From Acidobacteriaceae bacterium (GTDB lineage: Bacteria; Acidobacteriota; Terriglobia; Terriglobales; Acidobacteriaceae): a stretch of DNA of 33,642 nucleotides. Positions 1,779 to 28,892 of the stretch are shown piece by piece. The position numbers and the translations under genes are program-made. The first letter of the stretch is position 1. The number at the start of each line of letters is the position of its first letter. Below the pieces are notes generated by a model. It was not told where the DNA came from. It saw only the letters and a program-made list of their open reading frames with translations, and did no database searches. Where the stretch lies: NCBI GenBank assembly GCA_003134435.1, contig PLBE01000126.1:114987-148628 (forward strand). The letters run 5' to 3'.

Positions 1779-1894
1779 AACCAAACCGGCTTCGAGGGAT
1801 TAAGTGGGCAATTGTAACCCTTTGCATGGCTCCAACAGCACTGATTTTCACGAGGAGCAGATCCTTCCGCCGGAAACGCGTTCGCCGGCGACTC

Positions 1895-7248: not shown

Positions 7249-8340
7249 TTATTTCCCCGGACGCGGCGTCGGAGCCCTCAACAGGTCCACAAACATCCTG
7301 TAAAACTTGTCCGTATCCAGGTCGACCTGTACTTCCACTGCCTGTAAATCACTCTTGGGTTTATCCAGATCGGTCCAGCTAAGTGTGTCTCCATAGCCCG
7401 CGCCGCGATCCAGATTCACGTCGAGATAGAGGTTTTCTTTCTTTGTGATCACACTTGGGTCAAGCCATGCCGCCGAAGTCAATTCATCCCATAGATAGTT
7501 ATAGGTGCCGAAGAGGTGCGCATATTTACTGATATATTGCGCGGATGGCGAGTTGCCCCCTCGGATCCTATCGATCAGTTCATTGCTCATTCTTGTCTTC
7601 AATGAAATATCCACCGGAGTGCAGACGATCTTCCTCCACCGCGCCCGCAACACAATGTGCGCCGCTTCCGGATCGAACCACAGGTTGAATTCGTGGCGTG
7701 GCGTGTTGGCAAACTCCGGGTCCGCCGTCTGCGGATTCAAACTCGCGCCCATAAACACCAACTCTTTTGCCAGCCCCGCAAAATCTGGATCGATGGAGAT
7801 CGCCAGCGCCAGATTCGTCATCGGCCCGCCTTCATAGATCGTGATTTCGTGCGGATATTTCCGCACCATACGCACCAGAAAATGGGCCGCATCTTCGTCC
7901 GCAGCCTTGGCGGTCGGCATCCCCTCTGGCATCGCTCCCAATTCGCGCGGCGCGTGATACAGCTTCGGAGTCCACGCCCCCAGCCACGCCACCGAGCCGT
8001 AGCGCAGTTCCCACTGCTCCGTCTCTTCCTTGGTTCGAAGCAGAGGATTCTCGGCTCCCCGCAACACCGGAATGTCGGTTCGTCCGATCAGTTCAAGCAT
8101 GCGCAAAGTGTGCGCCACTTCCTCCGTCAACCACCCATCCCCCGTCACCACCGTGATGCCCAACACTTCCGTCTGGGGAGACTGGATCAGCAGCAGGATC
8201 GCTTGCTGGTCCGTGCCCGCTGGACCGGCCGCATCCTGATCGATGATGATCTTGCGCCTTTCCTGACCTCGCGTCACCAGACAGCTCGCCACAACGAGAG
8301 TTGTGAGCGCGACAAAACTTCCAATTCGGCCCAGCCTCAT
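7249..8340 (-). CDS. Exported nucleoside hydrolase, divergent active-site loop (probable lipoprotein)
   Basis: Inosine/uridine-preferring nucleoside hydrolase fold, 363 residues. The N-terminus is a signal peptide whose VAS-C (Cys20) fits a lipobox, so the enzyme is probably tethered in the periplasm. The usual calcium-binding DTDPGxDD is replaced by IIIDQDAAGPAGTDQQ (31-46), which keeps Asp34, Asp36 and Asp44 but has a three-residue longer loop and Gln in place of the last Asp. Later parts keep the family pattern: EGGPMTNLALA, NLWFDPEAAHIVL, and a VQVDLDTDKFYRMFVDLL tail. ATG at 8340 has GAGG seven bases upstream. The altered loop may mean a different sugar or base specificity, or a different metal site. 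Family call good; substrate unknown. Confidence 0.9.
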   Translation of the reverse strand: MRLGRIGSFVALTTLVVASCLVTRGQERRKIIIDQDAAGPAGTDQQAILLLIQSPQTEVLGITVVTGDGWLTEEVAHTLRMLELIGRTDIPVLRGAENPLLRTKEETEQWELRYGSVAWLGAWTPKLYHAPRELGAMPEGMPTAKAADEDAAHFLVRMVRKYPHEITIYEGGPMTNLALAISIDPDFAGLAKELVFMGASLNPQTADPEFANTPRHEFNLWFDPEAAHIVLRARWRKIVCTPVDISLKTRMSNELIDRIRGGNSPSAQYISKYAHLFGTYNYLWDELTSAAWLDPSVITKKENLYLDVNLDRGAGYGDTLSWTDLDKPKSDLQAVEVQVDLDTDKFYRMFVDLLRAPTPRPGK

Positions 8341-8565
8341 TCCTACACCTCGAAATTCCAGAACTTACCGCCAACAATTGCAGCGCAGGTTAACCCGGAA
8401 TAGAATGCCATCATAATCTGATGAGCAATGTCACAACCACTGTAGCGATTCACGTAAACATCAACAGAAGTGTCACCAACGATCCGGAGCACGATTAACG
8501 ATAACGGCTGGTTCTATCTCGCTATTAGACGTGCCGATTTCTCCCGTTTTTAGGAGCCGATTCGC

Positions 8566-10116
8566 TTGACCACCGGCCACTCCCGGCAATCTCCAACCTG
8601 TCTGATCGCCTGCGTCTTCGCCGCCGCCCTCCTCGCGCCCGGCCACGCACAATCGACTGATCCCCCCGGCAATGCACTGCTGCATGGATATGTCCGCGAC
8701 ACCACCGGCCGCCCGGTTGCAAATGCCGACTTGTTCCTCGCACGCGCAACCTCGCCAAAGCCCTGCGTCGCTTGGGACCAGAACACCCAGGCCGATGTGG
8801 AAGGCCACTACCGCTTTGCTGCGCTTCACGCCGGGACGTACTGCCTGCGCGCACAAATGATCGGATTCGACGAGGCCACCGTCGCCCGCCTAGACCTCGC
8901 CCCGAACGAGACCACAAAGATCGACCTCGTTCTTGCCCCTGCTAGCGCCTCTTTTGTGACCACCCCGTCCGCCGCCAAACCCGCTCCGCCGTCACCCGCA
9001 TTTTTCGACGAACCTCAGTTCACCGTGGCCGGAGTCACCCAAGGCACAAATTCAGGCGGCCACGGTTCCGATACCGTGCTCCGCACCACCGAAGCGCTCG
9101 CCCAGGCGACGGTCAGGTTGAGCAATCCACCTGATCCCTCATCGCAGTCGCCCACCACCGCGACTGAAACTTCTTTGCGGCAGGCACTCGCGGCCCATCC
9201 CGACGATCCCGCACTCCATCATCAACTCGGCGATGTCGAGGCCAAACTCAACCATCCCCTGGACGCGGTCCGCGAGTATCAACGCGCCGCCGAACTTGAT
9301 CCCAGCGAACCCAATCTCTTCGATTGGGGAACCGAGCTCCTGACTCACCGCGCCCTGGAGCCGGCGACCGAAGTCTTTACCCAAGGCCACCGCCTGTTTC
9401 CAAAGTCGCTTCGGATGCTGGTGGCGCTCGGCGTCGCCTGGTACGCCCGCGGCTCTTATGATGAGGCGGCCCAGTGCCTGGGAAACGCCTCCGACCTCGC
9501 TCCTGAAAATCCTACTCCGTATCTCTTCATGGGAAGAATGCAGTCGGTGGAAACCACTCCCTCCCAGGGAACCGTAGAAAGGCTGGCCCGATTCGCGCGC
9601 CTCCAGCCGGAGAACGCCCTGGCAAACTACTACTACGCCGTGGCGCTGTGGAAGCAGCAGCGGCAAGACCCGGCTTCGCCTGACCCACAAGCCGGCCCCG
9701 ACCGCTCACCCCGCGCGGAACCCCTGTTGCTGCAAGCCGTGCGCCTTGATCCCCAGTTTGCCGCCGCCCATCTGCAACTGGGAATTCTCTATGCCGAGCG
9801 CGAAGACTTTCCCCGCGCCATCACCGAGTATCAGAAGGCAATCGCAGGCCGTCCCGAACCAGCCGATCTCGCTGCCGCCAGCCCCACTACCGTCGCTCCC
9901 ACCGCCGTCGCTTCCGAACAAGCCAGCCCCCAATTCGATGAACTGCTGGAAGAAGCGCACTATCGCCTGGCCCACGCCTACCTGCGTACCGGCGACAAAG
10001 CCAAAGCCAAAGAACAACTTCAGCTTCATGACCAGTATTCCAGGAAAACAAAGGAGGATAGCGAACGCCAGCGCCGCCAGATTCAGGAGTTTGTGATTTC
10101 GCTGCGAAAACAATAA
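8566..10116 (+). CDS. Secreted carboxypeptidase-regulatory-like plus TPR protein
   Basis: A 516-residue exported protein. The signal peptide ends near GHA (residue 28). A carboxypeptidase regulatory-like beta-sandwich follows (about 38-125: LLHGYVRDTTGRPVANADL, then EGHYRFAALHAGTYCLRA), a Pro/Thr-rich linker to about 205, then TPRs to the C-terminus, interrupted by an Ala/Pro/Thr-rich insert near 425-455. The start is TTG at 8566, supported by AGGAG at 8552-8556. It is transcribed toward the TonB receptor gene. Proteins of this type are common in Acidobacteriota beside Oar-like receptors, and the same N-terminal fold occurs in that receptor. It is probably a periplasmic or outer-membrane scaffold; its partner is not known. 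Confidence 0.85.
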   Translation: MTTGHSRQSPTCLIACVFAAALLAPGHAQSTDPPGNALLHGYVRDTTGRPVANADLFLARATSPKPCVAWDQNTQADVEGHYRFAALHAGTYCLRAQMIGFDEATVARLDLAPNETTKIDLVLAPASASFVTTPSAAKPAPPSPAFFDEPQFTVAGVTQGTNSGGHGSDTVLRTTEALAQATVRLSNPPDPSSQSPTTATETSLRQALAAHPDDPALHHQLGDVEAKLNHPLDAVREYQRAAELDPSEPNLFDWGTELLTHRALEPATEVFTQGHRLFPKSLRMLVALGVAWYARGSYDEAAQCLGNASDLAPENPTPYLFMGRMQSVETTPSQGTVERLARFARLQPENALANYYYAVALWKQQRQDPASPDPQAGPDRSPRAEPLLLQAVRLDPQFAAAHLQLGILYAEREDFPRAITEYQKAIAGRPEPADLAAASPTTVAPTAVASEQASPQFDELLEEAHYRLAHAYLRTGDKAKAKEQLQLHDQYSRKTKEDSERQRRQIQEFVISLRKQ

Positions 10117-10241
10117 TCCCGCGTCATGAACGCTTTGAAGGCGCGCGGCTTTTCCACTTGCCGAGAAACTAGCGCGGTTTCTCCACTGGCCCCCCCGCCG
10201 TCAAAGCCTTTGACTTACCCGCCATTGGCCACGCCCCACGC

Positions 10242-13200
10242 CTAGAACGTCAGCTTGAGCGCGAACTGCACCAGTCGGGGATTGTTCACCGTCGAATTAA
10301 CCGAGCCAAATCCAGGGGCGCTGATGTCATTCACCGGCAACCCAAACTGCGCGTGATTGAAGAGGTTGAAGAACTCCGCCCGGAAATTCAGGCCCATCCC
10401 CTCCCGAGGCAGGCCGAAGCGCTTGATGATGGAGAAATCGGTGTTGACGAAATCCGGACCCACCACCGGCACACGACTCGCATTCCCCAGTTCGCCCGCC
10501 GCCGCCGGTTGAAAGCAGGATGCGTTAATCCATTGCTGCTGGCTGTGGTTGGCCGCGTATGGATTGCAACCGGCAACCTGGTCAGGCCGGTTATAGTTGT
10601 TCCCGTTTCCGCCGTTATTGAACGCAACTCCGGACTGGTTAAAGCTATCGATCAGCGGGTCGGGAAACCCTGAAGAGATATGTTCGATGAGCGTTACCTG
10701 CCAATTCCCCAGCGCCGCATTGGTCGCGCCGTTCCAGTCACCCCCGAACTTCTTTCCTCGGCCGAACGGCAAGTCGTAAATGACACTGGCCGTGAGGTTA
10801 TTGTTAAGGTTGATCTGCGACAGCGCCCAATCCAGTTTCTGCCAGTTCGGAAGGGGGAAGTAAGGCGCACTCTGCAAGGAACCTAGACCGTCAGTAAGGC
10901 CATTATCGTAGGTGCGCGAATAGGTGTAACTCAGTAGAGTGTAAAGGCCGTACTTCGGCGTCTTAGTCTCGGCTTTGATCTGCAGCGAGTTGTAGGTCGT
11001 GTCACCAAGATCGCCAAACTCTAAAACGGCGTTAAAGTTCGGTACCGTGACAGCTGGTATGTACTGGGAGCCATCCGGGTTGCACCCGATAGTGTAGCCG
11101 GGTGTCCCGCAAGCCGGTCCCACCGTGTTGATGTCATTTCCGAAGATCAGAATGTGATGGCCGCGCGCGCCCGCATACCCAGCCGTCAGCACCACGTTCC
11201 CAGGCAACTGCCGTTCCACGTTCACGTTGAACTGCTGGACACTGCCCAGCTTAAAGTTCGTCGGTTGTGTAAACAGCGTTCCGGTGAATGAAGAAAGCGG
11301 GGGCGGCGTCGGATAGCTGATAAACGCGTTGGAATCGCTGATGCCCGTAGGCGTCTCCGTCGCAGCGCAGGCCGAGGTCGCAAACGCACACCCGGCTGGG
11401 CCAAAAAGATCAGACTCGGCGAAGAAAGGTGGATTCTCCCACAGGCCCTGAGCACCTTGGCTCCAGGCGGAATCGTGGAAGATGCCATAGCCCGCTCGCA
11501 CTACAGTCTTGTCACTGCCCGGCACTTTCCAGACCAGACCGATTCGTGGCTCAAAGGCCTTCCAACTCATCTGTATGCCCGCCGCCGAATTCACTCCATT
11601 TTGATTGGCGACAAGAAGCTGACCCGTAGTGGCGTTGTAGTTTGCCATGCGCCCATGCTCTTCCGAGATGGGAGTCGTCATATCCCACGCCAGGCCCAGA
11701 TTCAAGGTCAGGTCCTTCGTGATTCTCCAGTCATCCTGCGCGAACGGCCGGTAGATCTTCCAGCGGCGGCCCGTGACCGGACCATTAAAGGTCTGATCGT
11801 GTTCGGACAGACCCAATATGCCCAACAGCACATCCGCTTCGGGATTGCCACCTATACTTGCGCTATTCCCGCTGCCATACGGGCAACCGGGACTGCTGCT
11901 GGTGGCCGTGCTGCTACAGTTAAAGCCACTGAAGTTGCCCGCCACACCGGGGATCCAGAATCCATCCTGGAAGGCCTCGGTGCCTACATTCATCTGGTTG
12001 GCCCGCAAGCCTAGCCCCACCCTGAACTCGTGTTTGCCCCGAATCAACTCGAGAGTATCGTTGAACGAGAAGATGTTTGTTCCACCTTGGAACGGAGAGT
12101 AACCGCGATCGCCAATCGACCAGTACCCGCCGAACAGTAGCACGCTGACCAGTCCGCAGCTATACGCCCCGGCCTCGCAAGTGTCGCTGCCGTTGGGGCA
12201 CCCCAGGTTCGCGCCCGGAATTCCAACCCCGCCGATCGTAGCCGAGGCGCAAGTCCCTGTACCCTGCGAACTGATGTAATCGAAAATCCGGTTGTACCCA
12301 AATGTGGCTTGATTGACCGTCGTCGAAGAAAACTGGTGAGTCTCGCCGATGGCGATTTGGCGCCCGTGATTGATAATTCTCTGGTTGCTCCCGAATGCGC
12401 TCGCTTCCGTAAGAAATCCCGGCCCCGCGCCCCCGGGCACGTACGAGCCCGCTTGATCGTAGCTGAACCGGCCAAACACGCTATCGACACTCGATATATT
12501 GTGGTCCAGTTTAACGTCAAACTTGGTCTCGTCCAGCGTGCGCACCGGCTCGTTCACGAAGTTGTAGGAGCAACTCGTACACCCGAAGTTGGCGTTCGGC
12601 ACGGGGTAGAGATTGATCAGCGCTTGCCCCACCGGGCTGGCCACTCCAGTCGCACCAGTCGGGATCTTGGCGCAATTCGTTCCCTGAGCCTGACTTCCGT
12701 CCGCGTTTGCCGGCAACGGATTCCCCGACCCGTCGCACTGGAAGTAGGCGTTTGGAAAGACGTTGGGGTTTGCCGACAACGCGATATTGCTCGGAGTCAC
12801 CACATTTGGATTCACGATGCCGGGAACCGTGTAGGTATTATTCCCGATCGTTACAGAGCCAGAAACCGGGTTGCCAAACGCGTCGTCGCTGAAATCGCCA
12901 TTACGCATCGCGACCGAAGGAACCAGTCCCGTAAATGGAATGCCGTGGCGCTGGTACTTCTGCTCGGCATCAAGAAAAAAGAAAGTCTTGTCCTTTTGGA
13001 TCGGCCCGCCAATCGAGCCCCCAAACTGATTCAAATTGAACTTCTCCGCCTTGCTTGCAAAAAAGCTCTTGGCATCCAGATCCGTGTTGCGCAGAAACTC
13101 GAACAACGACCCGTGGTAGCCATTGGAGCCTGATTTCGTCGTGACCAGCACGGTGGGGCCCGCGCGCGTCCCGTATTCCGCCGTGTAGTTATACGTCAAC

Positions 13201-13889
13201 ACCTTGAATTCCTCGATGTCATCAATCGAAGAAAAAATCCCGATTCCCCCGGCCGTCAACTCGTTGTTGTCGACTCCGTCCAGAAGCCAATCGGTGCTGT
13301 TCGGTCGCGATCCGCCGACGGACAAAGAGAACGAGCCGCGCGCGGCCACTTCGCTGTCAGCGCCGCCGACAAAAAAACTGCCCGGATTCGTCTCCTGCGT
13401 GGCGCCCGGCGTCAGGCTTGCCAGTTGAACAAAATCCCGTCCGTTCAACGGCAGTTGCGCCACTTCCTGCGCCGTGATCACCTGGCCGAGCGATGGGTTC
13501 GTGGTTTCAATGACTACTTCACTGGCGTTCACTTCAACCGTCGAAGTCACCGCCGCCGGGTTGAGCGTGAAATCGATCTCGAGCGCTTCGTTGACTTGCA
13601 GCCGAACATTCTTCTGCTCGGCGGTCTGGAAACCCTGCGAGGCTACTCGGATCGTGTAGAACGCCACCGGCAGCAGCGGCACCAGATAGTGCCCCGAGTC
13701 GTCAGTCTTCGCTTCGCGCGTCAGACCCGTGCCCTGCGAGCTCACTGTCACCGTCGCCCCGGCGATCACTGACCCGGTCTTATCCGCAACCGTCCCCGAA
13801 AGACTGCCGTTTGCCTGGCCATACAGAAGTTGACAGAACGCAAACCCGAAACTCAGTACCGCCACCAGCAGCGCTTTTCTCTTCAGCAT
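10242..13889 (-). CDS. TonB-dependent outer-membrane receptor, Oar-like, with carboxypeptidase-regulatory N-terminus
   Basis: A 1215-residue outer-membrane transporter. A signal peptide ends near GQA (residue 26). A carboxypeptidase regulatory-like domain (about 27-112) begins GSLSGTVADKTGSVIAGATV, a plug domain follows (QLPLNGRDFVQLASLTPGA, then WLLDGVDNNEL), and the rest is a large beta barrel ending in FALKLTF with the C-terminal Phe typical of Bam-dependent proteins. ATG at 13889 has AAGGTG about seven bases upstream, and a strong sigma70-type promoter lies 118 bases further up. It stands alone between nucleoside hydrolase genes, so it may bring nucleosides or larger ligands into the periplasm, but the many receptors of this type in Acidobacteriota have mostly unknown ligands. 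Family call is very secure. Confidence 0.95.
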   Translation of the reverse strand: MLKRKALLVAVLSFGFAFCQLLYGQANGSLSGTVADKTGSVIAGATVTVSSQGTGLTREAKTDDSGHYLVPLLPVAFYTIRVASQGFQTAEQKNVRLQVNEALEIDFTLNPAAVTSTVEVNASEVVIETTNPSLGQVITAQEVAQLPLNGRDFVQLASLTPGATQETNPGSFFVGGADSEVAARGSFSLSVGGSRPNSTDWLLDGVDNNELTAGGIGIFSSIDDIEEFKVLTYNYTAEYGTRAGPTVLVTTKSGSNGYHGSLFEFLRNTDLDAKSFFASKAEKFNLNQFGGSIGGPIQKDKTFFFLDAEQKYQRHGIPFTGLVPSVAMRNGDFSDDAFGNPVSGSVTIGNNTYTVPGIVNPNVVTPSNIALSANPNVFPNAYFQCDGSGNPLPANADGSQAQGTNCAKIPTGATGVASPVGQALINLYPVPNANFGCTSCSYNFVNEPVRTLDETKFDVKLDHNISSVDSVFGRFSYDQAGSYVPGGAGPGFLTEASAFGSNQRIINHGRQIAIGETHQFSSTTVNQATFGYNRIFDYISSQGTGTCASATIGGVGIPGANLGCPNGSDTCEAGAYSCGLVSVLLFGGYWSIGDRGYSPFQGGTNIFSFNDTLELIRGKHEFRVGLGLRANQMNVGTEAFQDGFWIPGVAGNFSGFNCSSTATSSSPGCPYGSGNSASIGGNPEADVLLGILGLSEHDQTFNGPVTGRRWKIYRPFAQDDWRITKDLTLNLGLAWDMTTPISEEHGRMANYNATTGQLLVANQNGVNSAAGIQMSWKAFEPRIGLVWKVPGSDKTVVRAGYGIFHDSAWSQGAQGLWENPPFFAESDLFGPAGCAFATSACAATETPTGISDSNAFISYPTPPPLSSFTGTLFTQPTNFKLGSVQQFNVNVERQLPGNVVLTAGYAGARGHHILIFGNDINTVGPACGTPGYTIGCNPDGSQYIPAVTVPNFNAVLEFGDLGDTTYNSLQIKAETKTPKYGLYTLLSYTYSRTYDNGLTDGLGSLQSAPYFPLPNWQKLDWALSQINLNNNLTASVIYDLPFGRGKKFGGDWNGATNAALGNWQVTLIEHISSGFPDPLIDSFNQSGVAFNNGGNGNNYNRPDQVAGCNPYAANHSQQQWINASCFQPAAAGELGNASRVPVVGPDFVNTDFSIIKRFGLPREGMGLNFRAEFFNLFNHAQFGLPVNDISAPGFGSVNSTVNNPRLVQFALKLTF

Positions 13890-14006
13890 CGGTTTTCACC
13901 TTTGACGGCCGCTCGTCTCCCTTTGTTCCAACGAAAGCGAGCGGTGATTGGGACCGACATCCTCGCGGCTCAAACGTGGAGCGTCCCTTTTTTAATGCGA
14001 TGCGCC

Positions 14007-14035
14007 ATATAAATAGATTAGAAATGCAAAGTCAA
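14007..14035 (-). promoter_or_regulatory. Sigma70-type promoter of the TonB receptor gene
   Basis: On the minus strand, TTGACT (14035-14030) and TTATAT (14012-14007) are separated by exactly 17 bases. The region is AT-rich compared with its surroundings. Transcription would start near 14000, giving a leader of about 110 bases before the ATG at 13889. The rest of the 296-base gap 13890-14185 shows nothing further. Confidence 0.7.
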
Positions 14036-14185
14036 GAGTTTTGTTCCCCATGGCGCCGTTTCTCACGGAAACTCCGCGAATTCAGTTTTTCATAACGTCT
14101 ATGCTTTCTCGGATCCTCACAAACCTGCGGAAAAACCAGCGCGGTGGCTGGGCTCTGCCGCCGCTCTGAAATCAAACCCCGTCCC

Positions 14186-15181
14186 TCAGCCAATCGCTCG
14201 AGCCACCAGCGCGATTCCCAGACAATAAAATACGAACATCAATCCCAGATACATCCGCGCCTTTCCCGGAGCGCCCGCAAATTCCTTCCAGGCTAGAACT
14301 CCCCACAACGCCGCCACCATAGGCGCCGATTGTCCAATCGCGTACGAAATCGCCACCCCCGTAAAACTAGCTGCCACCAGGTTGAACACCATCCCCGTGC
14401 CCCAGATGAATCCGCCCAACAACCCCAGCGCATGGGCAGACGCGGGTGCGCTGAAAAAGCCGCTGAACTTCACCGGCTCGCCCACCAGCGGATGCTTCAT
14501 GAAATAGACGTTCCATACCAGACAAGAGAGCAGCGCCCCAAACGTCAGAAATATCGCCGCCGCATACGGACCGAGACTGCCCTGCATCACGCCGTTCACC
14601 TCGTGCGGCATCGCCCGCGTCATAAACGGAGCCCACAACCCCATCAGGACGCCCGACACTATGCAGACCGTGATGCTCTTCTTCGAGGTCGAGCGACTCG
14701 CGGCGGCCAGCGCGCTATAAGCTCTGCCGTCCAGAATCACGGCAACGACCGCGCATAGCACGCCCGCAGCCAGCAGTGCGGCGTTGCCTTGCGGATGCTG
14801 CACGTAGCTCGTGATAACGCCCACCACCAGTGCGATTCCAATCGAAACCGGAAAGGCGATCGCCAGCCCCGCCATATCGATGGCCGCCACCAGCAACAAA
14901 TTCGCCAGATTGAAAATCGCCCCTCCCACCATGGCAAGAATGATGTCGCTGCTGTTGGCCGCGTGCAGGTTGCTGGGCAGGTCGGAACCGTCGTGGCTGG
15001 TGATGCCCATGGTGTGTCCCAGGATCAGCGCGATCAGAAAAATACCAATCGCATAGTCCCAATAGAACAACTCGAAACGATAGTTCTTAACGCCCTTGTA
15101 AGTATTGGCCCATGAGCCCCAGCAGATGGCGCTCGCGATCATCATGAAGAGTGCAATACCCAGAGTATGGGGTGTGTACAT
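14186..15181 (-). CDS. DMT-superfamily permease, GRP sugar / ureide-permease-like
   Basis: A 331-residue integral membrane protein with about ten hydrophobic helices and no signal peptide. The N-terminal block SAICWGSWANTYKG, then RFELFYWDYAIG, resembles the bacterial branch of the glucose/ribose porter and ureide permease group of the drug/metabolite superfamily. Plant members carry allantoin and uracil; bacterial GRP members carry sugars. ATG at 15181 is preceded by GAAGGAG six bases upstream. It lies 53 bases after the exported nucleoside hydrolase gene on the same strand, so the two are probably one operon. Inference: it imports the ribose or free base released outside the cytoplasm. Membrane family good, substrate inferred. 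Confidence 0.8.
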   Translation of the reverse strand: MYTPHTLGIALFMMIASAICWGSWANTYKGVKNYRFELFYWDYAIGIFLIALILGHTMGITSHDGSDLPSNLHAANSSDIILAMVGGAIFNLANLLLVAAIDMAGLAIAFPVSIGIALVVGVITSYVQHPQGNAALLAAGVLCAVVAVILDGRAYSALAAASRSTSKKSITVCIVSGVLMGLWAPFMTRAMPHEVNGVMQGSLGPYAAAIFLTFGALLSCLVWNVYFMKHPLVGEPVKFSGFFSAPASAHALGLLGGFIWGTGMVFNLVAASFTGVAISYAIGQSAPMVAALWGVLAWKEFAGAPGKARMYLGLMFVFYCLGIALVARAIG

Positions 15182-15234
15182 TCATTGCTCCTTCGTTGCT
15201 CCTGCCAGCTTCCCGACCTCGGAACCAGTCAGTT

Positions 15235-16323
15235 CTACTTGCTGCGAATTCTCGAGACGAACAGTTGCAGAAAACGGTCCGCGTCCACTTCGACGCAAAC
15301 CTTCGCGTTGGGCTCGACCTTGTCCACTCCCTCAATCACGTAGCGGTCGCCATGCAGCACGTTGCGTTCGACCGCGCCATGGCGATTGGCGACCGTTTCG
15401 CCGCGCGTGAACTCGCCTCGGGTCTCGACATCGACGTGCATAGCCGGAGCCTTCACCAGCGTTGCGTCAATCGCCACGCCCACCGCCAACGGATCATACA
15501 TGGGTGTGCCGTCGAAACCGAATTGCGCCGATAAATCAATCAGGTAGTGCGCCACTGCATAGATAAAATCATTCACCGGACCGTGCGTCTGGCCCAGTCG
15601 TTCGAGGTACTTTGCCGAAAGCAACGTCTTATCGCCAACATCCAGTCCGACCATGGTCAGCGGCCATCCCGCCCGAAATACGATCTGCGCCGCTTCCGGA
15701 TCGTTGTAGATGTTCGCTTCCGCCGACGCGTTCACGTTGCCGCCGCTGATCGAACCGCCCATCAGGATCACTTCCTTCACCAGCCCCACGATCGACGGAT
15801 CCTTCTCCACCGCCAGCGCGATGTTGGTCAGCGGACCGACCGGAACCAGCGTAATCTCATGCGGCGCGGCGTGCACCATTTCGATGATCAAATCAGGCCC
15901 GTAGCGCCCGTCAACCTTGCACTTGCTCGGTGGCAATTCCACGTTGGCCAATCCGTTCTTCCCGTGCCAGAACTCCGCCGTAATCAACTTCTGAATCAGG
16001 GGATGCTGTGCTCCACCCGCGACCGGAATGTCGCAACGGTCTGCCAGTGACACCATGCGCAGCGCGTTTTCCAGTCCCTGCTGGGCCGTCACGTTGCCCG
16101 GCACCACTGTAACCGCGCGAACGTCCAGTTCCGGCGAGTTCAGCGCCAGCATCAGCGCCATGGCGTCGTCGGAACCCGGATCGGTATCAAGAATAATTTT
16201 CTTGCCCGCCCCGAACGCCGGCATCGTCACCGCCATTAGGCAAATTACGCAGAGGAACCACCAACCAGACACGGAAATCGCAGACTTTTGACGGCTTCGA
16301 AAACTCTCACTCGGATGGCGCAA
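15235..16323 (-). CDS. Exported nucleoside hydrolase, canonical active site
   Basis: Hydrolyses the N-glycosidic bond of ribonucleosides to base plus ribose. The 362-residue product has an N-terminal signal peptide (an Arg/Lys-rich start, hydrophobic core about 19-35, cleavage near FGA at 37-39), so it acts in the periplasm or outside. The calcium/catalytic motif DTDPGSDD is intact at 46-53, as are VGPLTNIALA, the substrate-binding block NIYNDPEAA, and MYDPLAV with the late Asp. The start is TTG at 16323, chosen because GGAGG lies six bases upstream and it gives a complete signal peptide. A TTGACA promoter lies further up. It is first in an operon with the DMT permease and divergent from deoC. 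Exported members are less usual than cytosolic RihA/B/C. Confidence 0.93.
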   Translation of the reverse strand: MRHPSESFRSRQKSAISVSGWWFLCVICLMAVTMPAFGAGKKIILDTDPGSDDAMALMLALNSPELDVRAVTVVPGNVTAQQGLENALRMVSLADRCDIPVAGGAQHPLIQKLITAEFWHGKNGLANVELPPSKCKVDGRYGPDLIIEMVHAAPHEITLVPVGPLTNIALAVEKDPSIVGLVKEVILMGGSISGGNVNASAEANIYNDPEAAQIVFRAGWPLTMVGLDVGDKTLLSAKYLERLGQTHGPVNDFIYAVAHYLIDLSAQFGFDGTPMYDPLAVGVAIDATLVKAPAMHVDVETRGEFTRGETVANRHGAVERNVLHGDRYVIEGVDKVEPNAKVCVEVDADRFLQLFVSRIRSK

Positions 16324-16329
16324 AATCTA

Positions 16330-16334
16330 CCTCC
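16330..16334 (-). promoter_or_regulatory. Ribosome binding site deciding the TTG start at 16323
   Basis: GGAGG on the minus strand, six bases before TTG at 16323. The only nearby alternative, an internal GTG, would leave a signal peptide without its basic N-region. Confidence 0.7.
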
Positions 16335-16368
16335 AGATGCCGGCTTGCAGACTTTAGGAATCGCGCCG

Positions 16369-16397
16369 AGCCTAGCCGCGCCACGTCCCACTGTCAA
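16369..16397 (-). promoter_or_regulatory. Sigma70-type promoter of the nucleoside hydrolase-permease operon
   Basis: A perfect TTGACA (16397-16392, minus strand), a 17-base spacer, and TAGGCT (16374-16369) as a weaker -10. Transcription would start near 16362, about 38 bases before the TTG start. In the same 243-base divergent gap a plus-strand TACAAT lies near 16449 and could serve deoC, but without a clear -35. Confidence 0.6.
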
Positions 16398-16566
16398 GCC
16401 AAAACCCGCGTCTCGAAACCAGGATGCATCTTCCTTCGCATCTGCCGTACAATCGAACCGCGAAGCACAGGCCGCGCACGATTCGATCTCGTTCGCTCCC
16501 GCGAAATGCACTAGGATGAAGCGGAGCCCGCCCGTCTCGCCAGCAGCCTATCCCGCGGAGTTCCCG

Positions 16567-17601
16567 ATGCCGGTCGAACACGATCCGTCGCGCCACCTGA
16601 ACCGTCCACACGCGCACGCAGGCATCCCGATCCCTTCCCTCTCCGGCCAGCCTTTGCTGCCCAATACCGGCATCCCTTTAAATCTCGATTGGGTCCGCGA
16701 GGCGCGCGTCAACACCAGCGCCGTCGAGCGCCGCGCTCAATCCCAGGTCGCCCGCCGCTCCGTCAAGAAAGAATGGCAGGCGGCCTGGCTTCTGCGAGCC
16801 ATCACTTGCATGGACCTGACCACCCTTTCCGGCGACGACACCGACGAGCGCGTACGCCGCTTGTGCGCCAAGGGCCGGCATCCCATTCAGCCCGAAATCG
16901 AAAAGAAATTGGGCATCGAAGACTTGCAAATCAAGGTCGCCGCCATCTGCGTCTACCACACTTTTGTGGAAACCGCGCTGCACGCGCTCCAAGGCAGCGG
17001 AGTGCACGTCGCCGCCGTATCCACCGGTTTTCCCGCAGGTCTGTCGCCGCTGGCCGAGCGCGTCAACGAAATTCGCCGCTCGGTCGAGGCCGGCGCCCAC
17101 GAGATTGACGTCGTCATTACCAGGGCGTACGTTTTCGGAGGCCGCTGGCAAGCACTCTACGACGAAATCTCCGCCTTCAGGCAAGCCTGCGGACCGGCGC
17201 ACATGAAAGTCATCCTCGGCACCGGCGACCTGCTCACCCTCCGCAACGTCGCCCGCGCCAGCCTCGTCGCCATGATGGCCGGCGCCGATTTCATCAAAAC
17301 GTCCACCGGGAAAGAGCCCACCAACGCAACTCTGCCGGTGGGCTTGGTGATGACGCGCTGCATTCGCGAGTACGCGCAGCAGACGGGGATGGCGGTGGGA
17401 TTTAAGCCGGCAGGCGGAATCCGTACAGCGAAGCAGTCGATTGATTGGCTGGCGATGATCAAAGAAGAACTGGGCGAGTCGTGGTTGCGGAAGGAGATGT
17501 TCCGCTTCGGAGCCAGCGGCTTGCTGGGAGACATCGAGCGGCAACTGGAGCATCATGCCACCGGACGGTATTCGGCCGAGTATCGGCATCCGTTGGCGTG
17601 A
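16567..17601 (+). CDS. deoC: Deoxyribose-phosphate aldolase, eukaryote-like long form
   Basis: Class I aldolase that splits 2-deoxyribose-5-phosphate into glyceraldehyde-3-phosphate and acetaldehyde, the last sugar step of deoxynucleoside breakdown. The 344-residue product resembles the long (human DERA-type) form: AITCMDLTTLSGDDT at 78-92, EIDVVI at 179-184, the Schiff-base Lys244 in DFIKTSTGKEPT, and VGFKPAGGIR at 277-286 with the second catalytic Lys280. ATG at 16567 is chosen for GGAG six bases upstream; the frame is open to 16288, but that region is low-complexity and runs into the divergent gene's leader. The downstream aldehyde dehydrogenase can oxidise the acetaldehyde. Function very secure, start fairly sure. 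Confidence 0.94.
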   Translation: MPVEHDPSRHLNRPHAHAGIPIPSLSGQPLLPNTGIPLNLDWVREARVNTSAVERRAQSQVARRSVKKEWQAAWLLRAITCMDLTTLSGDDTDERVRRLCAKGRHPIQPEIEKKLGIEDLQIKVAAICVYHTFVETALHALQGSGVHVAAVSTGFPAGLSPLAERVNEIRRSVEAGAHEIDVVITRAYVFGGRWQALYDEISAFRQACGPAHMKVILGTGDLLTLRNVARASLVAMMAGADFIKTSTGKEPTNATLPVGLVMTRCIREYAQQTGMAVGFKPAGGIRTAKQSIDWLAMIKEELGESWLRKEMFRFGASGLLGDIERQLEHHATGRYSAEYRHPLA

Positions 17602-17615
17602 TTGCGAGAAGTCTG

Positions 17616-18170
17616 ATGCAAAACGAGGAGCAAACCAAACTCCGACTGCTTGTTCGCCGAAACAAAGGGCGCATGGAGTGTCCGTCCTATGCTACCGAGC
17701 TCTCGCACTTGCTGAAAGCCGAGATCCACCCGAGTGACATTCTTGCCCTTGAGGAGACCGACAGTTTTCTATCAATTCACCATGCCCAAGCAGGGAGAAG
17801 CGCCAAGGAAAAAGGTTTTGCGTTTAAGAAAACCTGGAGATACAAGCCCTTGGCCACGTGGACTAACCTATGCAGGGAACTTGGAGAGAAGCTGTGCGAG
17901 GTGCCAGCGGTTTTATTCGTAGGCCCCTACGAATTCTGCGGCGGGGTCAAAGTGAAAGCCGGCAGAGCACTCAACGCGGCCCCCTCGCTCTTGGAGTTTG
18001 ACAGAGACACCGTTACGTTGCAGTCCTTCTCTATGGAATCGGGACTCTTTCTGGATCTCTTCGAAGAAAATTCGGAGTGGTTCGTCGAGCTGGCTGTGTG
18101 GGGTGCTTGGAAGGTGCTGGCAGAAGAGCTAGGACCGTTTCCTGAAGGGAACCATAATGAGCATTGCTGA
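17616..18170 (+). CDS. Hypothetical protein between deoC and aldehyde dehydrogenase
   Basis: A 184-residue soluble protein I do not recognise. It has no signal peptide or membrane segment. Visible features are an N-terminal basic stretch (LRLLVRRNKGR), KKTWRYKPLATWTNL in the middle, FVGPYEFCGGVKVK, and an acidic, aromatic C-terminal part (LFLDLFEENSEWFVELAVWGAW). ATG at 17616 is used, with a weak GAGAAG before it. GTG at 17598 would overlap the deoC stop as GTGA. The end overlaps the aldehyde dehydrogenase start by 14 bases, so it is co-translated with the deo genes. Its DNA looks less GC-rich and less C-ending than both neighbours, which could mean later insertion into the operon. Confidence 0.7.
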   Translation: MQNEEQTKLRLLVRRNKGRMECPSYATELSHLLKAEIHPSDILALEETDSFLSIHHAQAGRSAKEKGFAFKKTWRYKPLATWTNLCRELGEKLCEVPAVLFVGPYEFCGGVKVKAGRALNAAPSLLEFDRDTVTLQSFSMESGLFLDLFEENSEWFVELAVWGAWKVLAEELGPFPEGNHNEHC

Positions 18171-20697
18171 AAAGTTTGTGAGCATGGAATACGGGCCGGC
18201 TCCGGAAGATTCGAAAGAAGCGTCGGCGTGGCTGGAGCGCCATGGCTACCGCTTCCAACATTTCATTGGTGGTGGATGGATCGCACCTGCGGCGGGAGAG
18301 TATTTCGATACGGTCGATCCTTCGAACGGCGAGAGACTCGCGTCAGTTGCGCAGGGGTCGGCGGCGGACGTTGATGCGGCGGTCAAAGCTGCGCGGGGCG
18401 CGGTTTCTGGATGGCGAGCCCTAACTCCACATGCCCGCGCCCGCTACCTCTATGCCATCGCCCGCCTGGTCCAGAAGCATTCCAGGCTGCTCGCTGTCCT
18501 CGAAACCATGGACAATGGCAAGCCCATCCGCGAGAGTCGCGACATCGATATTCCGCTGGTCGCCCGGCATTTCTATCACCACGCCGGCTGGGCGCAACTC
18601 CTCGACCGGGAGTTCCCCGAGTACCTTCCCTGCGGCGTCGTCGGCCAGATCATCCCCTGGAATTTCCCGCTGCTGATGCTGGCCTGGAAAATTGCGCCCG
18701 CCCTGGCGACGGCAAACACGGTCGTGCTAAAGCCCGCGGAATTCACGCCCCTGACCGCGCTCGTTTTCGCCGAAATCTGCCAGGAAGCCGGTTTGCCCGC
18801 CGGTGTAGTCAACATCGTCACCGGCGACGGCTCAACCGGAGAGGCAATCGTCAAGCATGCCGACGTCGACAAGATCGCATTCACCGGCTCTACCGAAGTC
18901 GGACGCTCCATCCGCGCCGCCACCGCGACCACCCACAAGCGCCTTTCCCTTGAACTCGGCGGCAAGTCCCCCTTCATCGTCTTCGAAGACGCCGACCTCG
19001 ACAGCGCCGTCGAAGGCCTGGTCGATGGCATCTGGTTCAATCAGGGGCAAGTCTGTTGCGCGGGCTCGCGCCTGCTCATGCAGGAGAGCGTTGCCGAAAC
19101 TCTGCTCGCCAAAATTCAGGACCGCATGAGCACCCTGCGCATCGGCGCCCCGCTCGACAAAGCCATCGACATTGGCGCCGTCGTTGCCCAAGTGCAACTC
19201 GACCGCATCCGCAAACTGGTCGACCAGGGCGTCGCCGACGGCGCCACTTGCTGGCAGCCCCAGGTCACCTTGCCGTCACGCGGATTCTTTTATCCGCCCA
19301 CTCTCTTGAGCAACGTGCATCCGACCTCCATCGTGGCGCAGCAGGAAATCTTCGGCCCCGTCCTCGCCGCCATGACTTTCCGCACGCCGGCGGAAGCGGT
19401 GGAACTCGCCAACAATACGGTGTATGGCCTGGCGGCCTGCGTCTGGAGCGAGAGCATCAACGTTGCCTTGCATGTTGCGGCGCAACTTAAAGCGGGAGTC
19501 GTCTGGGTCAACTGCACCAACCTGTTCGACGCCTCCTGCGGCTTCGGCGGCTACCGCGAAAGCGGCTACGGTCGCGAAGGCGGACGCGAAGGGCTGCTCG
19601 AATACATGGAACCGGCCTGGTTCAAAGAAACACCATTCCAGACCGGGAAGGGCGCGAGTTCACTCGTGCCACAACCGGCACAAGAAAAAGATGCGGCTTC
19701 ACAGGCTGCTGAACAAAGCCGGTTCGTATCAGGATATCGCTTTAGCGATATCGCAAGTCACTCTGGAATCAATGCCCCTTTAGGGGCTGAGGGGCACACG
19801 GCGACTTCTTCATCAGCCTCTTCAGCCGCTGGGGGAGATAGATCAGACAGCGCTCCCGCCATCGACCGTACCGTCAAGCTCTATATCGGAGGCAAGCAGG
19901 CCCGCCCCGACTCAGGTTACAGCACGGAAGTCCGCGCCACCGACGGACGCCTCCTCGGCGAAGCCCCCCTCGGCAATCGCAAAGACATTCGGAACGCGGT
20001 CGAAGCCGCGCGCAAAGCCACTGCATGGGGAAAGGCCACGGCGCACAATCGCGCTCAGGTTCTCTATTACTGCGCCGAGAATCTTTCCCAGAGGCGCGAT
20101 GAAATCGCCCAGCGCCTCGCCGCCGTGGTCGGCGATAAACAAGCTGCTGCGGAACTGGACCTCGGCATCGAACGCATCTTCTCCTACGCCGCCTGGGCCG
20201 ATAAGTTTGACGGCGCGGTTCACAATCCCCCGTTCCGCAATGTCACCCTCGCCATGCACGAAGCCATCGGAACGCTCGGCATCCTCTGTCCGCGGCAGGC
20301 GCCACTCCTTGGATTTCTTTCCCTGGTGATGCCCGCGCTCGCGCTTGGCAACACCGTGATCGCGATTCCTTCAGAAGCCTATCCGCTGATCACCGGCGAC
20401 CTTTATCAGCTTTTTGACACCAGCGACCTGCCTGCGGGAGCGCTCAATATCGTGACCGGATACGCCTCCCAACTACTCAAGCCACTCGCGGAACACGACG
20501 ACCTCGACGCCATCTGGTGCTTTGGAGATGAAGCCAGCGCCGCCGCGGCCAAGGCCATGTCAGTCGGCAATCTCAAACAGGTTTGGACCAACGAAGGCCG
20601 CGCCATCGACTGGTTCAATCGGAACGTGGCAGAGGGCCGCTGGTTCCTGGAGCACGCTACACAGATAAAGAACATCTGGGTTCCGTACGGCGAATAA
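18157..20697 (+). CDS. ALDH16-type double-domain aldehyde dehydrogenase
   Basis: An 846-residue protein with two aldehyde-dehydrogenase domains. The first (about 30-490) is complete: PWNFPLLM (167-174), GSTEVG (244-249), catalytic Glu266 in LELGGK and catalytic Cys300 in GQVCCAG. The second (about 572-846) keeps the fold outline but has no GQxC and no ELGGK, so it should be inactive. That layout matches the ALDH16 family. A low-complexity linker (about 491-571) joins them and contains palindromic repeat DNA. NAD-dependent oxidation of an aldehyde is the expected activity; next to deoC the substrate is probably acetaldehyde. ATG at 18157 lies inside the end of the preceding gene. Family call good, substrate inferred from context. 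Confidence 0.92.
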   Translation: MSIAEKFVSMEYGPAPEDSKEASAWLERHGYRFQHFIGGGWIAPAAGEYFDTVDPSNGERLASVAQGSAADVDAAVKAARGAVSGWRALTPHARARYLYAIARLVQKHSRLLAVLETMDNGKPIRESRDIDIPLVARHFYHHAGWAQLLDREFPEYLPCGVVGQIIPWNFPLLMLAWKIAPALATANTVVLKPAEFTPLTALVFAEICQEAGLPAGVVNIVTGDGSTGEAIVKHADVDKIAFTGSTEVGRSIRAATATTHKRLSLELGGKSPFIVFEDADLDSAVEGLVDGIWFNQGQVCCAGSRLLMQESVAETLLAKIQDRMSTLRIGAPLDKAIDIGAVVAQVQLDRIRKLVDQGVADGATCWQPQVTLPSRGFFYPPTLLSNVHPTSIVAQQEIFGPVLAAMTFRTPAEAVELANNTVYGLAACVWSESINVALHVAAQLKAGVVWVNCTNLFDASCGFGGYRESGYGREGGREGLLEYMEPAWFKETPFQTGKGASSLVPQPAQEKDAASQAAEQSRFVSGYRFSDIASHSGINAPLGAEGHTATSSSASSAAGGDRSDSAPAIDRTVKLYIGGKQARPDSGYSTEVRATDGRLLGEAPLGNRKDIRNAVEAARKATAWGKATAHNRAQVLYYCAENLSQRRDEIAQRLAAVVGDKQAAAELDLGIERIFSYAAWADKFDGAVHNPPFRNVTLAMHEAIGTLGILCPRQAPLLGFLSLVMPALALGNTVIAIPSEAYPLITGDLYQLFDTSDLPAGALNIVTGYASQLLKPLAEHDDLDAIWCFGDEASAAAAKAMSVGNLKQVWTNEGRAIDWFNRNVAEGRWFLEHATQIKNIWVPYGE
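19733..19787. repeat. In-frame palindromic repeat in the ALDH16 linker
   Basis: Two hairpins stand close together inside the gene: GATATCGC-TTTA-GCGATATC (19733-19752, perfect 8-base arms) and GCCCC-TTTA-GGGGC (19774-19787, perfect 5-base arms). Both share the loop TTTA. They encode linker residues around GYRFSDIASHSGINAPLGAEG. This looks like an inserted dispersed palindromic element that stayed in frame. Confidence 0.6.
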
Positions 20698-20711
20698 AAT
20701 CATTGAATCAC

Positions 20712-20807
20712 TTGGTCATTCAGTCGCTGAATCATTGTGGATCTAGGTTCCTGGCTGGTTTTGATGAAGGATTCAACGTCTGGATGATTCGATGATTCAA
20801 TGACCAA
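20712..20807. repeat. Interrupted inverted repeat after the ALDH16 gene
   Basis: TTGGTCATT (20712-20720) pairs with AATGACCAA (20799-20807), and TGAATCAT (20728-20735) pairs with ATGATTCA (20792-20799). A seven-base bulge interrupts one arm. It fills most of the 118-base gap between the ALDH16 gene and the TrpF-like gene and is much more AT-rich than its surroundings. It could be a small non-autonomous repeat or an mRNA stem; no T-run marks it as a terminator. Confidence 0.55.
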
Positions 20808-20815
20808 ATAGACGC

Positions 20816-21508
20816 ATGAAACCATCCCCCACGCCCCGAGTGAAAATCTGCTGCATCGCCAGTGTCGACGAAGCCGCTCTAGCCGTCGACTGTGGAGCGT
20901 CCGCTCTCGGCCTGGTTTCTCACATGCCCAGCGGACCAGGCATCATCCGTGATGAGCAAATCGCGGAAATCGCCGCCACCGTTCCGCCCGCCATCGGAAC
21001 CTTCCTGCTGACCTCACGGCAACAAGTCGCCGACATCATCGCGCAACAGCGCTTCTGCCGCACCAATACGATTCAGATCTGCGATCGCCTCCTCCACGGC
21101 ACTCATCGCGATCTGAAAGTGGCTTTGCCCGGAATTTCCATCGTCCAGGTCATCCACGTGACCGGACCCGAGTCGATCGACGAAGCCGTGCGCGTGGCCC
21201 CCCATGTAGATGCCATCCTGCTCGACTCCGGCAACCAGAAACTTGCCATCAAACAATTAGGCGGCACCGGACGAACTCACGATTGGACGGTCAGTCGCGC
21301 CATCCGCGAACGCATCGCCGTCCCCCTGTTTCTCGCCGGAGGCCTCACTCCTGAAAACGTCGCCCACGCCATCGCTGACGTGGCGCCCTTCGGCCTCGAC
21401 GTATGTTCTGGAGTCCGCACTGCCGGCCGCCTTGACTCCACCAAACTCCAGCGTTTCTTTGCTGCCGTGCGCCATGCCCCCGCGCAATCCCCAAGGAGTG
21501 TTGTCTAA
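20816..21508 (+). CDS. Phosphoribosylanthranilate isomerase (TrpF)-like protein, probable paralogue
   Basis: A 230-residue beta/alpha barrel of TrpF type. The general-base Cys is kept in VKICCIAS (the usual KICG reads KICC), as are the Asp in ILLDSGN, GGTGRTHDW, LAGGLTPENV and LDVCSGVRTAG. The first substrate loop, normally FxxxSPRyv, reads HMPSGPGII, and I recall proteins with this loop forming a clade apart from true TrpF. No other tryptophan gene is near; upstream are deoC and ALDH16. An isomerase acting on a ribosyl or deoxyribosyl phosphate is therefore as plausible as tryptophan synthesis. ATG at 20816 has no clear Shine-Dalgarno. Fold secure, role uncertain. Confidence 0.8.
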   Translation: MKPSPTPRVKICCIASVDEAALAVDCGASALGLVSHMPSGPGIIRDEQIAEIAATVPPAIGTFLLTSRQQVADIIAQQRFCRTNTIQICDRLLHGTHRDLKVALPGISIVQVIHVTGPESIDEAVRVAPHVDAILLDSGNQKLAIKQLGGTGRTHDWTVSRAIRERIAVPLFLAGGLTPENVAHAIADVAPFGLDVCSGVRTAGRLDSTKLQRFFAAVRHAPAQSPRSVV

Positions 21509-25825: not shown

Positions 25826-26263
25826 TTACTTCTGACTCTTCTTCCCGCGCGGCCACTTCGCAACCACCACCGTCGAAATCCCGCCCCGTGGACGAAACTC
25901 ACCTTTCACTTCCGCCCACAACGGTTTCGCCCAGCGCACAACATCCTCCAGCACCTGATTCACCACGTTTTCCTGGAAGATTCCGAGGTTGCGATACGAC
26001 TGCAGATATTCCTTGAGCGATTTCAACTCCAGACACGAACGATCGGGCTCGTAGCGAATCACCAGATGGCCGAAATCCGGCAAGCCCGTCTTCGGACACA
26101 CCGACGTGAATTCGGGATCGTCGACCACAATTTCGTATCCCGGAAACTGGTTCGGCCAGGTTTCAATCTCCGGAAAATCGTGGTCAAGTCCAGCGCAGGC
26201 GTGATCCGCCGTGTAACCAGCAGGCCCGGGGCGAAGCGACAAAGAACGGGGAGACTTTCGCAT
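25826..26263 (-). CDS. queF: NADPH-dependent preQ0 reductase (7-cyano-7-deazaguanine reductase)
   Basis: Reduces the nitrile preQ0 to preQ1 with NADPH in queuosine (tRNA modification) synthesis. It is the short, unimodular type. The active-site block FTSVCPKTGLPDFG (52-65) holds Cys56, which forms the thioimide, and Asp63. The QueF motif ELKSLKEYLQSYRN (79-92) follows, then FQENVVN and the late FRPRGGIS. ATG at 26263 gives 145 residues; GTG at 26302 (158) is possible. A TACAAT just upstream of the ATG would suit a leaderless message, but no -35 is visible. It is first in a minus-strand run with the MFS and glycosyltransferase genes. Function very secure. Confidence 0.96.
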   Translation of the reverse strand: MRKSPRSLSLRPGPAGYTADHACAGLDHDFPEIETWPNQFPGYEIVVDDPEFTSVCPKTGLPDFGHLVIRYEPDRSCLELKSLKEYLQSYRNLGIFQENVVNQVLEDVVRWAKPLWAEVKGEFRPRGGISTVVVAKWPRGKKSQK

Positions 26264-26410
26264 CCGCCTATTGTACCCAGTGCCAATTGATAATCGCTGC
26301 ACTCGACGCCATCAACCCTCCCGCGCATCTAAACAGCTAAGACCGGGACTACCGTTTGCCCGCTCCCGCGGCGCGGGATGATATACATTTAAGCTTGCGC
26401 TTTTCTCTGC

Positions 26411-28645: not shown

Positions 28646-28790
28646 AGCGATGCCTGAATCGCCGGTTAACCCAGAGCCCGCGGAAAGTCTAGGAATAGCG
28701 TGCTTGCCCGTCGTCAAGTCGCCGTCCTGCATCACGATCTTGGATCCCGCCAACATCCTCGAGCCAGCCGGTACGAGCAAAGTTACTGCC

Positions 28791-28855
28791 CGCCGCGTTC
28801 GCGGCGCACTACAATTTGTGCGTGAACATATGCGCGAACCCAGATATGCGTGAAC
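28791..28855 (+). promoter_or_regulatory. Putative operator region upstream of the TolC-type gene
   Basis: A perfect palindrome CGCCGCG-TT-CGCGGCG (28791-28806) precedes a TACAAT (28810-28815). Three direct copies of TGCG(T/C)GAAC follow at 28819, 28831 and 28847. The -35 is unclear (TTACTG at 28783 is too far). The repeats would overlap the start of transcription, which is what a repressor site would do. Confidence 0.4.
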
Positions 28856-28892
28856 TCAGGGGAGCGGCCAGATACCCGAGAAAGGTGACGAG

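Follow-up and report, generated by a model that had tools for sequence, protein, structure and literature searches.

The locus described here is a group of nucleoside-hydrolase, receptor and permease genes in a 33,642-nucleotide stretch of an Acidobacteriaceae bacterium (assembly GCA_003134435.1, contig PLBE01000126.1, positions 114,987 to 148,628 of the forward strand); the whole stretch is called the window. Its closest described counterpart is the rus locus of Bacteroides thetaiotaomicron (BT2803-2809). That locus comprises a ribokinase, a TonB receptor, SusD, DUF4969, a nucleoside hydrolase (NH) and a permease of the drug/metabolite transporter (DMT) type, and its RusT is a proposed importer of free ribose (PMC12596196, PMC10434189). 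In Pseudomonas aeruginosa the periplasmic NH Nuh releases base and ribose on the outer side of the cytoplasmic membrane (PMC5437708). RK9NH, a 2'-O-methyluridine hydrolase, is encoded with a DeoC-type aldolase on a soil DNA fragment (PMC6278475).

The window also joins a TonB receptor, NH and a DMT permease. It differs from rus in several features: no SusD match is found among the 24 window open reading frames (ORFs) scanned, the receptor is of the OMP_b-brl_4 type, no linked ribokinase is present among the window ORFs scanned (a ribokinase is linked in 8 of 16 cluster loci), deoC-ALDH16-TrpF, Qng1, FG-GAP and TPR proteins are added, and relatives of the window have hydrolase arrays of several subfamilies. 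An exported NH is shared with Nuh, described as a single enzyme, whereas the window has a permease, a receptor and a member of a derived hydrolase clade. As in the RK9NH fragment, an NH gene of the window is accompanied by one for deoxyribose-phosphate aldolase; neither "signal" nor "periplasm" appears as a word in the main text of PMC6278475, and no permease or receptor is noted in its accessible portion.

The locus is regarded as an extracytoplasmic nucleoside-scavenging cluster of Acidobacteriota that would work like the Bacteroides rus locus (rough probability 0.6). Because SusD and a linked ribokinase were not found in it, it is not filed as rus. A sequence-only reading of the same DNA had placed cleavage outside the cytoplasm and set this against the ordinary import of whole nucleosides. 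Export-type signals speak for the first part; the contrast was overstated, Nuh (PMC5437708) and rus (PMC12596196, PMC10434189) being precedents. Extracytoplasmic nucleoside cleavage is not new in principle and is here a relative of the known rus-type scheme. New, as far as the literature searched by titles and abstract starts shows, is the form that the scheme takes in Acidobacteriota, where hydrolases occur in arrays and a derived exported clade, to which NH1 belongs, has a changed active site; no exported bacterial hydrolase array is described in that literature.

Gene content and conservation of the cluster

The central genes are as follows. Cut-offs are 34.2 bits for PF01156 (IU_nuc_hydro), exceeded by both hydrolases, and 27 bits for PF07168.

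3373-7215, plus strand: FG-GAP / UnbV_ASPIC / AhpC-TSA / TPR protein, 1280 amino acids, cluster-conserved (Pfam).
7249-8340, minus strand: NH1, divergent nucleoside hydrolase (DQDAAGPAGTDQQ) with export-type start, possible lipoprotein (PF01156, 196.7 bits).
8566-10116, plus strand: CarboxypepD_reg and TPR protein with a signal-like start, cluster-conserved (Pfam).
10242-13889, minus strand: TonB-type outer-membrane receptor with CarboxypepD_reg, weak Plug and OMP_b-brl_4 (Pfam).
14186-15181, minus strand: 10-helix DMT-fold permease, Ureide_permease/Sugar_transport (PF07168, 68.2 bits; PF06800, 33.9 bits).
15235-16323, minus strand: NH2, canonical nucleoside hydrolase (DTDPGSDD) with Sec-type signal (PF01156, 310.8 bits).
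16564-17601, plus strand: deoC, deoxyribose-phosphate aldolase, divergent from NH2 (TIGR00126, 154.7 against a cut-off of 117.3).
18157-20697, plus strand: ALDH16-type aldehyde dehydrogenase (PF00171, 649.7 bits, two PF00171 stretches).
20816-21508, plus strand: TrpF/PRAI paralogue (PF00697, 84.8 bits).

The gene set named in the sequence-only reading is real: receptor, deoC, ALDH16, TrpF paralogue and the cdd-deoA pair are confirmed by Pfam. Passed over were qng1 (1895-2923) and the two large cluster-conserved proteins (3373-7215, 8566-10116). The deoC ORF spans 16288-17601 (+), its true start being probably 16564 by alignment. The aldehyde dehydrogenase matches PDB 6mvr, a bacterial two-domain enzyme which we take to be ALDH16, with E 1.2e-287. 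The TrpF-like gene is a paralogue, a separate PRAI gene being present on contig C179 of the same genome.

Sixty-one genomes were surveyed, the window's own and 60 relatives. The permease is present in 39 and PF01156 in 40 of them. A hydrolase lies within about 500 bp of 20 of the 22 full-length permease matches (at least 68% identity, window included) and is co-directional in 18 of these 20. The exceptions are G006, in which deoC adjoins the permease and NH2 leaves no tblastn trace, and a second G004 copy at a contig edge. Sixteen cluster loci, window included, were picked by permease or hydrolase, and only their other genes are independent. Recurring in these loci are the TPR protein (13), receptor, aldehyde dehydrogenase and FG-GAP protein (12 each), deoC (11), ribokinase and TrpF paralogue (8 each), CNT (6), deoA (5), Qng1 (4) and cdd (3), with NH2-type hydrolases in 13 and NH1-type in 12; all are lower bounds, as loci are cut and greedy ORF calling hid genes. 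The G058 hydrolase and the G010 NH2-type gene are missing from the 50 cluster hydrolases owing to ORF calling.

Receptors of the clusters are 52-56% identical to the window receptor (11 relatives), and receptor matches elsewhere have 25-37% identity to cluster receptors. The FG-GAP protein (3373-7215) has 61-78% identity in 8 relatives and 29% in G010, the TPR protein (8566-10116) 42-58% in 12 relatives. Hydrolases form arrays of 8 in 25.7 kb (G015), 6 in 13.7 kb (G003), 6 in 18.0 kb (G008) and 6 in 24.5 kb (G020), the members of which may not all be exported. In G034 permease, ribokinase, NH and receptor stand in a row on one strand. Conserved co-occurrence in relatives, which the sequence-only reading had proposed as a check, is found both for the hydrolase-permease pair and for the wider cluster.

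Further features of the window are as follows.

22-1371, minus strand: deoA / pyrimidine-nucleoside phosphorylase (PF00591, PF02885, PF07831).
1368-1784, minus strand: cdd, cytidine deaminase (PF00383, 81.0 bits).
1895-2923, minus strand: Qng1-type queuosine salvage protein (PF10343, 178.9 bits).
25826-26302: QueF-like gene.

The ORF at 17445-18170, between deoC and ALDH16, has no Pfam match and is not among the families common to the relatives' clusters, a comparison from which greedy ORF calling omitted it. A B12-binding/radical SAM protein is encoded at 30403-31875, downstream of an HlyD-TPR-OEP efflux-like run (26411-30236). Scans of the window found 0 promoters (1.1 expected) and 5 terminators (3.7 expected).

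Nucleoside hydrolases and the derived clade

NH2 has a TTG start with GGAGGT five bases upstream. The permease begins 53 bp past its stop on the same strand, in agreement with the hydrolase-permease operon of the sequence-only reading. Among solved structures the best match of NH2 is E. coli YbeK/RihA. Active sites were compared in an alignment of 84 hydrolases and RihA (three ORF-shortened rows left out of the first-loop judgement), with site numbers (Asp8, Asp14, Asn39, His241 etc.) that we take to be those of the catalytic residues. The catalytic columns of NH2 read DDDD N T N E N Y D, the Asp cluster DxDPGxDD, Asn/Glu/Asn and Asp242 being present; every compared column is kept except for Tyr at the His241 column. 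NH2-type and Tat-type rows retain the compared columns, with the same Tyr in NH2-type rows.

Export-type N-termini, claimed for both enzymes in the sequence-only reading, are seen by eye and hydropathy: MRLGRIGSFVALTTLVVASCLVTRGQ with a possible lipobox VASC in NH1, and RQK...WWFLCVICLMAVTMPAFGA in NH2. Signals were judged with a home-made hydropathy test and by eye. A strongly hydrophobic stretch precedes the first strand in 43 of 48 assessable cluster hydrolases and a twin-arginine (Tat) motif occurs in 4 more, giving a Sec- or Tat-like start in 47 of 48; starts of the remaining 2 of the 50 are cut or lengthened by greedy ORF calling. The hydrolase at 37957-38922 of G001 starts directly with the hydrolase domain and is cytosolic by look. 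An alignment-core hydrophobicity measure places 40 of 50 hydrolases above threshold versus 0 of 53 proteins of seven cytosolic families from the same loci (DeoC 11, TrpF 8, ribokinase 9, deoA 5, ALDH 13, Qng1 4, cdd 3). Receptors (12 of 12) and TPR proteins (11 of 13) are above threshold by the same measure.

The full canonical site is present in NH2 and absent from NH1. NH1 has Asp14 replaced by Thr, Asn39 by Asp, Asn160 by Ala and His241 by Trp, with a 3-residue insert in the first loop; Asp8, Asp10, Asp15, Thr126, Glu166, Asn168 and Asp242 are retained. Its kin share the three-residue insert, the loss of Asp14 and Asn160, Asp for Asn39 and Trp for His241. Groups D and F also lack Asp15, and D additionally lacks Asp8. 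The phmmer alignment arranges the first loop otherwise, with Asp15 as the lost residue; the multiple alignment is preferred because it needs no extra gap. The derived groups are united in a single clade (SH-aLRT 99), whose sister is a set of three rows with the insert and the full Asp set, in a tree for which the program warned of long branches, from which rows L112, L113, L117 and L141 were removed beforehand and in which one NH2-type G011 row is mislabelled Tat. A second NH1-type copy lies off the cluster contig in G029 (C27, 306685-307743), with one in-frame TGA in the matched stretch.

The AlphaFold model of NH1 keeps the NH fold, with a predicted local distance difference test (pLDDT) score of 81 and a best Z of 34.3; the 50 structural matches listed have Z values between 28.8 and 34.3 and consist of nucleoside or riboside hydrolases. 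The idea of NH1 as a defunct relic was rejected: its profile is matched in 25 of 61 genomes (E<=1e-80) and, at 1e-40, in 28 of the 396 genomes from the phylum. Retention in groups B and C of the columns that we take to be calcium-binding, seen in the alignment, also counts against a relic, though Asp15 is lost in groups D and F.

Asp14 presumably touches the ribose hydroxyls, and its loss in NH1 suggests an altered sugar end of the substrate pocket. Asp and Trp of NH1 at the Asn39 and His241 columns are presumably at the same sites as Asp40 and Trp260 of trypanosomal IAG nucleoside hydrolases. These two residues line the pocket of the trypanosomal enzymes, for which Asp14 and Asn173 are also listed (PMC4660014); NH1 lacks the residues of the Asp14 and Asn160 columns, and identity in the structural match is 18-20%. 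A purine preference of NH1 is a fair guess by this analogy, because Asp40 and Trp260 line the IAG-hydrolase pocket. The NH1 clade probably acts on another nucleoside, perhaps purine nucleosides. Since the active site is altered, its substrate or even its activity is not to be assumed. A tentative and less likely extension is that the duplicated exported hydrolases (Sec-type NH2, Tat form, NH1 clade) of a surface or periplasmic utilisation locus partition the nucleoside pool; the NH1 clade, having lost Asp14 and Asn160 and acquired Trp and Asp contacts of the purine type, would accept substrates outside the range of ordinary nucleoside hydrolases, such as 2'-deoxy- or modified nucleosides whose sugar would feed DeoC-ALDH16.

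Cargo of the permease

The RhaT/GlcU match of the window permease (36.9 bits) is far under its cut-off of 319.6. The structural model has a 10-helix DMT fold (pLDDT 91), with Foldseek matches to LicB, CST and nucleotide-sugar transporters. By sequence, the best matches to solved structures were to retroviral capsid chains, with E values from 0.058 upwards, and were rejected as meaningless. The closest named record is a Terriglobales metagenome assembly with 83% identity, and the next rows are Acidobacteriota.

Neighbours of the permease were compared in the best 80 of 586 confirmed loci from a scan of named genomes with a 20-permease profile; L111, L112, L113 and L117 are the same contigs as G006, G020, G003 and G033, so that these counts and those of the relatives survey are not independent there. 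Ribokinase is found at a distance of up to 3 kb in 4 of the 28 loci whose identity is 60% or higher, in all 8 of those at 52-60% and in 35 of the 44 below 52%; for hydrolase the values are 21 of 28, 2 of 8 and 6 of 44. Seven of 8 tested kinases pass the ribokinase equivalog TIGR02152, the eighth scoring 298.5 against 299.65. The window's own genome encodes a ribokinase, unlinked, on contig C5 (TIGR02152 341.9 against 299.65), 85% identical to cluster ribokinases. In the permease tree, built without L111, L112, L113, L117 and four duplicate rows, the window falls in a 39-row clade (SH-aLRT 98) divided into one subclade linked to ribokinase (95) and another linked to hydrolase (94); L141, L157 and L187 are labelled there as NH-less, yet NH lies 27 bp off in L141 and is seen by Pfam in L157 and L187.

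On these neighbourhoods ribose is the likeliest cargo, because the permease family sits near ribokinase across phyla. A Bacteroidota member of the permease's Pfam family is confirmed. In the Bacteroidota loci L157, L177, L184 and L187 the genes for ribokinase, NH, ADP-ribosylglycohydrolase and the permease all point the same way, which suggests that ribose may come from ADP-ribose as well. A survey of Bacteroidales found the permease profile in 23 of 198 genomes (20 regions), with no locus identifiable as rus. Permease paralogues accompanied by receptor and ribokinase, and in some cases by a protein with an FGE-sulfatase domain (F26), occur in L083, L086, L090, L093 and others, and such loci are probably a separate sugar locus.

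Clusters of some relatives include base transporters of the NCS1 (PF02133) or NCS2 (PF00860) type, amidohydrolases or molybdenum-hydroxylase subunits, and that of G029 a luciferase-like oxygenase. Together with the neighbourhoods above, these genes point to ribose as the cargo of the permease and to other ways of entry for the bases. An NCS1 permease occurs in the same stretch as the permease or the CNT-deoA block in L074 (12200-16280, G029), L118, L126, L132 and L133. In L074 the luciferase-like oxygenase comes next, then an amidohydrolase, and the three may form an arm for base degradation; neighbours of similar size flank NCS1 in L118, L126, L133 and partly L132.

Several observations weigh against the scavenging scheme. 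The ribokinase link is weakest in the window permease's own clade: ribokinase is unlinked in the window, is within 3 kb of only the 4 of 28 close permeases given above and occurs anywhere in the fetched stretch in only 10 of 28 close loci. Seven of the 28 close loci (L111, L119, L123, L129, L130, L131, L132; three with short flanks) lack an NH within 3 kb, and four NH-less close loci searched with NH2 show no trace of it. CNT nucleoside transporters (PF07662) are encoded in 6 of the 16 cluster loci and in 7 of the 80 named ones, and CNT-bearing relatives may import whole nucleosides as well. The receptor family is very common, with 54 match rows, fragments included, in the window genome; a TonB-type gene alone was therefore rejected as support, and only cluster conservation counts. 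The home-made hydropathy test passed 0 of 14 FG-GAP proteins, so that either this protein is not exported or the measure is able to miss signals. In G032, whose permease is 74% identical, NH, permease and qng1 follow each other on one strand. An Acidobacteriota PF07168 permease beside qng1, A0A2V9U0M9, imports preQ0 and preQ1 in E. coli; queuosine is not imported, and queuine only at very high concentration (PMC11130926).

These last observations bear on the strongest rival, in which cleavage stays periplasmic, but what the permease brings in is the base set free (purine, uracil or deazapurine), ribose entering elsewhere. Though unlikely, this rival has evidence of several kinds. Plant ureide permeases import bases, and cargoes of the family include uracil and allantoin. 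Ureide_permease is the best Pfam match of the window permease, PF06800 and RhaT/GlcU matches being weaker, and its close-clade neighbour is NH, not ribokinase. A0A2V9U0M9 complements uptake of both preQ0 and preQ1, and preQ1 use at 5 nM is reported for the transporter clones of that study (PMC11130926). Its likeness to the window permease is one of Pfam family and phylum, not of sequence comparison, and it adjoins qng1, whereas the window permease adjoins NH2, 11 kb from qng1. Base import is also opposed by the family-wide ribokinase linkage, which extends to the sister subclade (SH-aLRT 95) and to loci where NH and ribokinase are both present, and by the separate NCS1/NCS2 base carriers in some relatives' clusters. 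For the "ribose or base" import of the sequence-only reading, the ribose half gains from the ribokinase linkage of the family; the base half keeps some probability from preQ0/preQ1 import by an Acidobacteriota permease of the same Pfam family (PMC11130926).

Proposed scheme and its meaning

The cleavage-import scheme is most likely right in outline, and every step of the flow is one that we infer. Nucleosides or small nucleic-acid fragments would cross the outer membrane via the TonB-type receptor. Exported hydrolases would split nucleosides to base and ribose in the periplasm or at the cell surface, a reaction expected from the family and, for NH2, also from the conserved catalytic residues. 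Ribose would then pass the inner membrane through the DMT-type permease, whose gene runs in the direction of NH2, as the linkage of the permease family to ribokinase suggests, and the unlinked ribokinase of contig C5 would make ribose-5-phosphate. DeoC and ALDH16 would take the deoxyribose branch to glyceraldehyde-3-phosphate and acetate, acetaldehyde from DeoC being oxidised by ALDH16. Bases would be used, or imported by other carriers.

It is improbable that individually useful salvage genes are merely gathered in one region, with only NH2-permease forming a unit and NH1, the receptor and the large TPR proteins serving elsewhere. Divergent strands with several transcription units, derived NHs with altered active sites and the very large receptor family of the genome would fit such a gathering, but the joint occurrence of receptor, FG-GAP, TPR, NH1-type, NH2-type, deoC and ALDH16 genes in 11 to 13 of the 16 loci speaks against it. 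Least probable is a queuosine-salvage module, in which exported hydrolases free queuine or deazapurines, the permease imports them and Qng1 helps: Qng1 (1895-2923) and QueF-like (25826-26302) genes are in the window, but the genome has QueC and TGT, presumably makes its own preQ0 and, because these and the QueF-like gene are present, has no obvious need for preQ salvage. A qng1 gene accompanies the permease in just 3 of the 80 named loci and occurs in 4 of the 16 cluster loci, and a set with deoC, ALDH16, ribokinase and as many as eight hydrolases suits bulk catabolism more than the supply of a trace cofactor.

Soils are rich in Acidobacteriota, and to our knowledge little is known of their use of nucleic-acid debris. 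A conserved locus for extracytoplasmic cleavage, if true, would make the use of such debris in soil testable gene by gene. With as many as eight genes in 26 kb, the arrays offer variants of one active site in a natural series, and the clade without Asp14 raises the question of whether the reaction of the family has changed. For the permease family, neighbourhood and published assay (PMC11130926) point to different cargo.

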